Part shown: positions 21,058-58,527 of the stretch, in pieces | Numbering within the stretch: position 1 is the stretch's first letter | How the letters are laid out: every line of letters begins with the position of its first letter | Assembly (NCBI GenBank): GCA_016401345.1 | Contig: JAEACG010000001.1 | Location: forward strand, 868,001-932,000 | From: Fictibacillus nanhaiensis | Lineage (GTDB): Bacteria > Bacillota > Bacilli > Bacillales > Fictibacillaceae | Length of the DNA stretch: 64,000 nt | Reading direction: 5' to 3' | The notes under the pieces: generated by a model | What the model was told of the DNA's origin: nothing | The model's database searches: none | The model's input: the letters and a program-made list of their open reading frames with translations, nothing else | Made by a program: the position numbers and the translations under genes

Positions 21058-21759
21058 ATGTTGCACATTGAAATGTGGACAGACTTTGCTTGACCATTCT
21101 GCTATATTGGCAAAAAGCGTCTGGAGGACGCTATTAAAAAGATAAATCATCCTATTGAAGTAACGTATCGCTGCTTCGAACTGGATCCTACAATGGAACG
21201 TGACGTTAACGAAAACATCTATGAAAAATTATCTAAAAAGTATGGCATGAGTATTGACGCCGCTAAAGCAAACACGCAAAACGTGATACAAATGGCAAAG
21301 GATTCCGGACTAGAGTATCACATGGATACGATGATTCTAACCAATACCTTTGATGCTCACCGTTTGACGATGCTTGCTAAAAAAGAAGGTAAGATGCAGG
21401 AGATGACAGAACGCATCTTATATGCCTTTTTTACAGAATCCAAACATATTGGAGATCATGAAACATTAGCAAATCTTGCAGAAGATGTTGGTTTAAATAG
21501 AGAAGCTGTCAGACAGATGCTTTCAAGCGATAAGTTGTCTGATGAGGTTAGAGCTGATGAAGAAACAGCAAAAGCTTATGGAGTAACAGGTGTACCCTTC
21601 TATCTCATCGACAAAAAATATGCGCTTACTGGTGCACAGCCGACAGATGTTTTTGTACAAGCGTTGAACAAAATCATAGCTGAAAACAAAATCACGATAC
21701 TAAACAATGAAGATGGAATGAGCTGCGACGATGATGGCTGTGAAATTCCCAAGAAATAG
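21058..21759 (+). CDS. FrnE/DsbA-like thiol oxidoreductase with in-frame TGA at the active-site cysteine
   Basis: A 233-residue DsbA-superfamily protein if the TGA at 21091-21093 (codon 12) is read through. Before it: MLHIEMWTDFA; after it: PFCYIGKKRLEDA. Homologues such as B. subtilis YwbO have a CPFC motif here, so TGA sits exactly at the first catalytic cysteine. The rest is intact: a cis-proline GVPFYLI segment and a C-terminal C-x4-C (MSCDDDGC) as in FrnE. ATG 21058 follows GGGGGGAT. A 6-bp hairpin begins 22 nt after the TGA. Either this is selenocysteine (U-P-F-C) or a TGC-to-TGA mutation left a dead gene whose only remaining start is near 21193. Which one cannot be settled from this window. 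Confidence 0.7.
21116..21132 (+). other. Candidate bacterial SECIS hairpin
   Basis: AGCGTC (21116-21121) and GACGCT (21127-21132) form a perfect 6-bp stem with the 5-nt loop TGGAG. The loop begins 28 nt after the TGA and has G at its second position, within the loose rules for bacterial SECIS elements (loop roughly 16 to 37 nt after UGA, G in the first two loop positions). Hairpins of this size are common by chance, so this supports but does not prove selenocysteine. Confidence 0.45.
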
Positions 21760-21790
21760 CAGATCATTAGTATGGCAAATCGCATATTAG

Positions 21791-21826
21791 AAAAACGCAG
21801 AGGGATTAGTATCCTCTGCGTTTTTT
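21791..21826. terminator. Strong terminator between FrnE-like and nucleosidase genes
   Basis: AAAACGCAGAGGGAT pairs with ATCCTCTGCGTTTT around TAGT, with A-runs and T-runs on the two sides, so it is bidirectional. Confidence 0.9.
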
Positions 21827-21848
21827 CACTAAAGCCATAATTCCTTAA

Positions 21849-58232: not shown

Positions 58233-58265
58233 AATCCATATTATTCTGAATAATCATTTTGATAA

Positions 58266-58527
58266 AAGCAACGAACGGGAGTAGTAAAAGTCATTTTGTA
58301 GTCTAGAGAGCTGCGGGTTGGTGGAACGCAGTCTATGAAAACTTTGAACTCGCCCTGGAGCAGCAAGACAAAAAGAACGCGTTCTCTATGTTTTGACGAC
58401 TAACCTTCGTTAACAGGTTCTACAAGCAGGATTCTATGACGAATCAACAAGAGTGGTACCGCGGTCAGCCAAAGGCTTATCGTCTCTTTTCTCACAAATG
58501 AGATCAGAGATGGTAAGCCTTTTTTTG
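58266..58527 (+). promoter_or_regulatory. T-box riboswitch, leucine specifier (CUC)
   Basis: A tRNA-sensing leader. AACGAACGGGAGTAGTAAAAG begins stem I in the usual way, AGAGAGCTGCGG-GTTGGTGGAA gives the AG-bulge and distal loop, and GAACTC at 58346-58351 contains the specifier CTC (58349-58351). The T-box AGTGGTACCGCGG at 58452-58464 includes TGGT, which matches an ACCA tRNA end. The terminator pairs AAAGGCTTA with TAAGCCTTT and ends in T7. The neighbouring gene resembles YvbW, a leucine T-box gene in B. subtilis, which supports CUC/Leu. Uncharged tRNA-Leu should turn on the gene. Confidence 0.9.

Follow-up and report, generated by a model that had tools for sequence, protein, structure and literature searches.

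A UGA-containing FrnE-type oxidoreductase gene of Fictibacillus as a candidate selenoprotein gene conserved in Bacillaceae and related families

Gene organization and encoded protein

The window analyzed here is a 64,000-nucleotide stretch of the Fictibacillus nanhaiensis genome. The locus under study (Table 1) consists of a DsbA-family gene with an in-frame TGA, here called Sec-FrnE, two small hairpins within its frame, and a terminator-like hairpin behind it. The frame begins with ATG at 21058–21060, preceded by a G-rich stretch, GGGGGGATACCT, which is plausible as a candidate ribosome site. Codons 1–11, including the ATG, read MLHIEMWTDFA; TGA follows as codon 12, and then come a total of 221 sense codons, opening with PFCYIGKK, before the stop codon TAG at 21757–21759. 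The protein thus has 233 residues (MLHIEMWTDFA-U-PFCYIGKK...SCDDDGCEIPKK). This agrees with a first-pass annotation, made from the letters of the window, which had read an ATG at 21058, eleven codons, TGA, PFCYIGKK, and about 220 stop-free residues. Codon 12 coincides with the first active-site cysteine position of FrnE/DsbA proteins. FrnE proteins are predicted to be cytoplasmic, and no signal peptide was seen on inspection of the Sec-FrnE protein.

Table 1. Features of the Sec-FrnE locus, in window coordinates.
Feature	Position	Strand	Description and basis
Sec-FrnE gene, DsbA-family thioredoxin-fold oxidoreductase	21058..21759	+	233 residues, U12-P-F-C15; frame, PF01323, FrnE structure matches
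UGA codon, candidate selenocysteine	21091..21093	+	TGA kept in relatives at codon 12
Small hairpin between UGA and SECIS stem	21100..21112	+	fold
Bacterial SECIS hairpin	21116..21132	+	6-bp stem, loop UGGAG, UGA to loop 28 nt; folds, pair counts, synonymous freeze
C-terminal C-x4-C pair (C-DDDG-C)	21724..21741	+	translation, alignment to 5cnw; corresponds to Cys239/Cys244 in Deinococcus FrnE
Terminator-like hairpin and T run, 3' of the Sec-FrnE gene	21795..21826	+	fold of 21781–21840, −21.0 kcal/mol

The terminator-like hairpin is absent from the list given by a consensus terminator scan. A conserved neighborhood that might hint at function was sought around the gene and not found: nine neighbors from the window recur next to a Sec-FrnE gene in no more than 5 of 80 loci, and clustering of the proteins encoded around these 80 loci gave no group larger than 11 members. 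Because its neighbors hardly recur, the Sec-FrnE gene is considered to stand alone. Elsewhere in the window, a T-box leader lies at 58262–58490 on the plus strand (125.6 bits).

Similarity to FrnE proteins

The Sec-FrnE protein contains the Pfam DSBA domain PF01323 (150.8 bits, cut-off 25.6, E 5e-44), with U-P-F-C in the place of the N-terminal C/U-x-x-C motif. Its sequence aligns over almost the full length with the PDB entries 5cnw (Deinococcus radiodurans FrnE; E 3.8e-46) and 3gl5 (Streptomyces SCO1869; E 9e-48), and residue 12 falls on the first active-site cysteine. A structure model built from 14 sequences has a mean pLDDT of 83.7, with values below 50 for the last 22 residues (212–233). 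Its best Foldseek match is the FrnE entry 5xwh (TM 0.89, E 3.7e-22, rmsd 5.0), and the top five PDB matches are all FrnE entries with TM values of 0.87–0.89 and rmsd values of 5 to 9; the model therefore has the FrnE fold.

The C-terminal C-x4-C pair of the window protein is common in FrnE proteins, although not universal. Within the last 25 residues it is present in 80 of the 97 distinct sequences with Sec and in 38 of the 45 with Cys; among the 17 Sec sequences in which it was not found, L126 has C-x5-C.

SECIS hairpin and frozen codons downstream of the UGA

Two sets of relatives were compared. The 107 close-family TGA loci, taken from both strands, gave 97 distinct Sec genes, with L143 kept apart. 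The Cys homologues, chosen for the absence of TGA at the codon, gave 45 distinct rows after the duplicates L128/L155, L129/L145, and L130/L156 were collapsed and L169, whose motif was not recognized, was dropped.

The bacterial SECIS rules, as outlined in a review (PMC13188914), comprise a loop of 3–9 nt, a stem of 4–16 bp, a G at loop position 1 or 2, a distance of 16–37 nt from UGA to loop, and a minimum free energy of at most −7.5 kcal/mol. In the window, AGCGTC (21116–21121) pairs with GACGCT (21127–21132) around the loop TGGAG, starting 22 nt after the TGA. The loop of 5 nt, the 6 bp, the G at loop position 2, the distance of 28 nt, and the energy of −9.2 kcal/mol all lie within the outlined rules, so that both the stem described by the first-pass annotation and the fit it had seen in spacing and loop G hold against this consensus. 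The 23-nt hairpin fold has a z value of −4.33, and none of 200 shuffles equaled it. The complete 54-nt segment that begins with the TGA is only modestly more stable than its shuffles (z −2.15, 6 of 200 equally stable).

The stem is kept among relatives. Indeed, 573 of 582 stem cells are paired in the 97 distinct TGA genes, and other registers reach at most 365. Compensatory exchange is seen in the outermost pair (A-T 26, G-C 45, G-T 18, unpaired 8) and in the fourth pair (G-C 75, A-T 16, G-T 5, unpaired 1). Where His CAT replaces Arg CGT, the facing Asp codon is GAT in 16 of 16 genes, which restores the pair. Across 48 distinct rows and both hairpins, 18 cells changed on both sides against a shuffled mean of 6.6, and the covariation score was 0.119; neither value was reached in 500 shuffles. 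Two of the five covariation measures did not exceed the shuffles (both-side-changed pairs, 256/500; further pair types, 381/500). In these rows three of the six SECIS pairs are invariant, as are four of the five pairs of the small upstream hairpin, for which no covariation support was found.

Synonymous codon choice close to the TGA differs sharply between the two sets. The Sec genes use TGC for Cys+3 in 97/97 cases (Cys homologues, 11/45), GGC for Gly+6 in 95/96 (4/45), CGT for Arg+9 in 81/81 (10/33), and CTG for Leu+10 in 97/97 (2/32); the exceptions at Gly+6 are one GGA and a Val in L077. Fisher p values are about 1e-23 or less, figures that overstate independence since ancestry differs between the groups. 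Farther downstream the Sec genes vary, as at Val+23 (GTG 42, GTA 36, GTT 10, GTC 8). A synonymous freeze just after the TGA with variation farther on is the pattern predicted by an RNA element within the frame.

Selenocysteine machinery and its co-occurrence with the UGA

The host genome (4.28 Mb) carries SelA, SelB, SelD, and tRNA-Sec, all on the contig of the window, as the search proposed in the first-pass annotation had called for. They are selA (C1:244732–246078; 540 bits, cut-off 268), selB (C1:251006–252868; 362 bits, cut-off 242), selD (L003:10478–11533; 411 bits), and tRNA-Sec (58 bits, gathering score 47), the last of which ARAGORN reports as tRNA-SeC with anticodon TCA. selD has one in-frame TGA, in SSKGG-U-GCKIG, and the GG-U-GC motif makes the SelD of this genome a selenoprotein candidate itself.

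The sel locus (L003:8718–17388, G000:C1:244717–253387) also holds, between selD and selB, a PhnC-PhnE-PhnD-like ABC transporter and a GT4 glycosyltransferase. The PhnD-like protein scores 185 bits against TIGR04553, a family of putative selenate-binding proteins (cut-off 250), and the glycosyltransferase scores 226 bits for NF038229 (cut-off 400) and 57 bits for SenB (cut-off 300); these proteins possibly serve selenium uptake or storage. The possibility that formate dehydrogenase explains the Sec pathway of this genome was considered and rejected, as both FDH-alpha matches above the cut-off are free of in-frame stops.

One hundred related genomes were searched for FrnE, and 91 gave some match. 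TGA stands at codon 12 in 27 of them at 55% identity or more (the host genome and 26 loci checked by sequence); a 28th, G065 (L143), has the same codon at 47% identity. SelA and SelB exceed their cut-offs in an identical set of 66 genomes, and tRNA-Sec was found in 65 of the 100. Every one of the 28 TGA genomes belongs to the SelA/SelB set, and 27 of them have a tRNA-Sec match at E 1e-9; in G065, an assembly of about 200 contigs, tRNA-Sec was not found at this threshold despite the presence of SelA and SelB. Among the 34 genomes lacking SelA/SelB, none has TGA in the close FrnE family, two are without any match, and the one TGA listed within a match, that of G022, belongs to a paralogue. The presence of 27/27 TGA genomes in the SelA/SelB set has a hypergeometric p of 1.3e-6; outside the genus the count is 10/10 (p 0.003) and by genus 9/9 (p 8e-4), kinship not being removed from any of these values.

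Conservation of the UGA and alternative readings

A contig scan confirmed 105 relatives, and the best 80 were analyzed further. In all 80 of these nearest named loci codon 12 is TGA and the frame behind it stays open for at least 180 codons, nowhere decayed; being the nearest relatives, they are uninformative on the frequency of the Cys form, which the search of 100 genomes addresses. Their genera include Fictibacillus, Rossellomorea, Neobacillus, Mesobacillus, Cytobacillus, Planomicrobium, Aquibacillus, and Halalkalibacter. The Sec-FrnE form is no peculiarity of the host genome but constitutes a group across Bacillaceae, Fictibacillaceae, and Caryophanaceae. In the 45 distinct homologues selected as lacking TGA, the codon is TGT (40) or TGC (5) and never Trp, in line with the earlier statement that relatives read CPFC. 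An in-frame UGA in 97 distinct genes thus stands opposite a cysteine codon in 45/45 homologues. Collectively, the sel genes and the 80 loci with TGA and intact frames support the U-P-F-C selenoprotein oxidoreductase first proposed from the sequence, and we are nearly certain that the Sec-FrnE gene encodes a cytoplasmic FrnE-type disulfide oxidoreductase with selenocysteine as its first active-site residue. Selenocysteine insertion, the chemistry, and the cytoplasmic location of the product are what we infer from these data.

Three other readings were weighed. Translation might start downstream of the UGA, in which case the product would be 217 or 188 aa long and would lack the first active-site residue, as in database proteins of 217 aa and 219 aa that start with MGKK or MGKR at the Ile codon five codons after the UGA (P0001, P0003, P0053) and in a 188-aa form (P0013). 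We regard this as very improbable: the residues I, E, W, T, D, and A on the 5' side of the UGA are invariant in 97/97 distinct genes, and a downstream start would remove the first strand and the U-P-F-C motif and leave the hairpin and the sel-gene link unexplained.

Even less probable is another decoding of the UGA, by a suppressor tRNA or as Trp. Some metagenome proteins do show Trp at the codon-12 position (P0010, P0012, P0016, P0028, P0037), which is taken to reflect the use of code 4 by the gene finder; against this reading, the host genome has a complete Sec pathway, a SECIS hairpin follows the UGA, and the residue is Cys, never Trp, in the distinct homologues. Finally, a nonsense mutation or sequencing error that changed TGC into TGA, leaving the gene dead or misread, would need a single base and would fit an in-frame stop as the usual sign of a pseudogene, but it is scarcely credible when the identical TGA with an intact frame recurs in every one of those nearest loci (best 80 of 105), in separate assemblies from several families.

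On the selenocysteine reading, the database start sites are an annotation fault. Among the best 120 database matches, those named by NCBI, as DsbA family oxidoreductase, are 208–222 aa long with query coverage of at most 93%, and the two such entries examined, P0003 and P0053, start past the active-site residue; for most relatives that bear an NCBI name the listed protein begins only shortly past the UGA, with the active site lost.

Origin of the Sec form and a FrnE-like paralogue

A quick tree was built from 73 rows, namely 25 Sec rows thinned at 80% identity, 47 Cys rows including three duplicates, and L143, with L147 excluded. A branch (98) sets the Sec rows apart on one side, next to a Cys row (92), and L143 of G065 is placed within the Cys rows (96). 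This placement is suggestive of a separate TGA origin in G065, but that origin was not adopted, since an AU test with all Sec rows forced together did not reject a single group (p 0.43); one or two origins of the Sec form are both compatible with this result. In addition, the database proteins P0017, P0021, P0025, P0076, and P0077 are full length and have CPFC in an otherwise Sec-like sequence, and they may be returns from Sec to Cys.

A FrnE-like paralogue family, 26–32% identical, shows a comparable arrangement. In 12 of 12 loci read (L131–L137, L139–L142, L144), which were chosen because TGA was listed within them, the motif is U-P-[FY]-C, and GCGGAG...CCGC behind the TGA folds as a hairpin in each. 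L138 and the paralogue copy of the host genome are Cys proteins; the latter (L020, C1:722140–722745) has TGT and CPYC and lacks the GCGGAG...CCGC hairpin. The paralogue TGA is retained in five genomes of the same genus (L131–L135). Judged from these sequences, the paralogue family changes between the Sec and the Cys form inside the genus. The paralogue of G022 (L139, G022:C17:167610–168782) carries the Sec-type TGA with its hairpin, and SelA, SelB, and tRNA-Sec were not found in this genome, a mismatch that we attribute to recent loss or an assembly gap. A second paralogue copy in G052 (L140, G052:C28:230762–232012) has more in-frame stops, and an apparently intact copy, L144, is present in the same genome; L140 is perhaps a decaying duplicate.

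A broader proposal, which we put forward tentatively as possible rather than probable, is that the Sec pathway of this group of spore-formers is kept largely for cytoplasmic thiol enzymes of the FrnE/DsbA type and not for formate dehydrogenase. It would then serve two Sec oxidoreductase families, Sec-FrnE and the FrnE-like paralogue, each with its own SECIS and with repeated exchange of Sec and Cys down to species of one genus.

Proposed mechanism and role

Selenium activated by SelD would be used by SelA to make Sec-tRNA-Sec. At UGA codon 12 SelB, docked on the hairpin that starts 22 nt farther on, would deliver Sec-tRNA-Sec to the ribosome, and translation would continue to residue 233. In the thioredoxin fold, U12-P-F-C15 is expected to sit at the start of the first helix.

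The catalytic steps are modeled on FrnE of Deinococcus, for which one report (PMC8945050) describes the active site Cys22-Cys25, an intermolecular Cys244-Cys22 bond in crystals, a C-terminal C-x4-C to which regeneration of the active site is ascribed, activity as a disulfide reductase or isomerase, and a mutant sensitive to cadmium and diamide. By analogy, U12 would attack the substrate or form a mixed bond with it, C15 would resolve this bond, and the C-terminal C-x4-C tail would assist in regenerating the active site. The window protein keeps both features of Deinococcus FrnE, Sec replacing Cys22, and would therefore be expected to act in the cytosol and to cycle via a selenenylsulfide. Again by analogy, the most probable role would be to protect against thiol oxidation or metals.

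Comparison with known systems

The literature matches listed for Fictibacillus, Neobacillus, Mesobacillus, Bacillaceae, and DsbA/FrnE selenoproteins contain nothing on the Sec-FrnE gene, nor do they describe the breadth of the Sec-FrnE group in Bacillaceae. The Sec-FrnE group contributes a candidate selenoenzyme with wide conservation in Bacillaceae and their kin, and close relatives that carry Sec or Cys at one position offer a direct test of the benefit of selenium in a cytosolic oxidoreductase. We take COG2761 to be the COG of FrnE. A 2005 study of the Sargasso Sea (PMC1088965) described a DsbA-like selenoprotein family of COG2761 with a UxxC motif, three DsbA forms were outlined from the Global Ocean Sampling (PMC2398784), and 'DsbA-like protein form 1' with PF01323 is listed in a 2026 review (PMC13188914). 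By 2016, 45 DsbA-like selenoproteins had been counted in 41 organisms (PMC5029168), among which Bacillaceae may be represented; a 2006 survey gives three selenoproteins in three families for Bacillales (PMC1794560). Sec-FrnE thus belongs to an enzyme family already known for Sec forms.

Likened by its description, the Sargasso Sea family shares the Sec-first UxxC motif and the Pfam domain with the window protein, but it comes from a marine metagenome, whereas the group reported here consists of spore-forming Bacillaceae and kin. The FrnE selenoprotein described for Mamiellophyceae green algae (PMC6627142) also contains Sec but is eukaryotic. Lmo1059 of Listeria monocytogenes, a DsbA-family protein with CPFC whose first Cys is described as crucial for diamide tolerance (PMC10715225), is a cysteine form, unlike the window protein; for these two as well the comparison is one of descriptions.

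The closest known counterpart by structure is Deinococcus radiodurans FrnE (DR_0659; 5cnw, 5co3, 5coh, 5cp1, 5xwh), with 36% identity and a TM value of 0.89 to 5xwh. The two proteins share the position of the CxxC motif and the C-terminal C-x4-C tail, yet the active site begins with cysteine in the Deinococcus enzyme and, by our reading of the UGA, with selenocysteine in the window protein.
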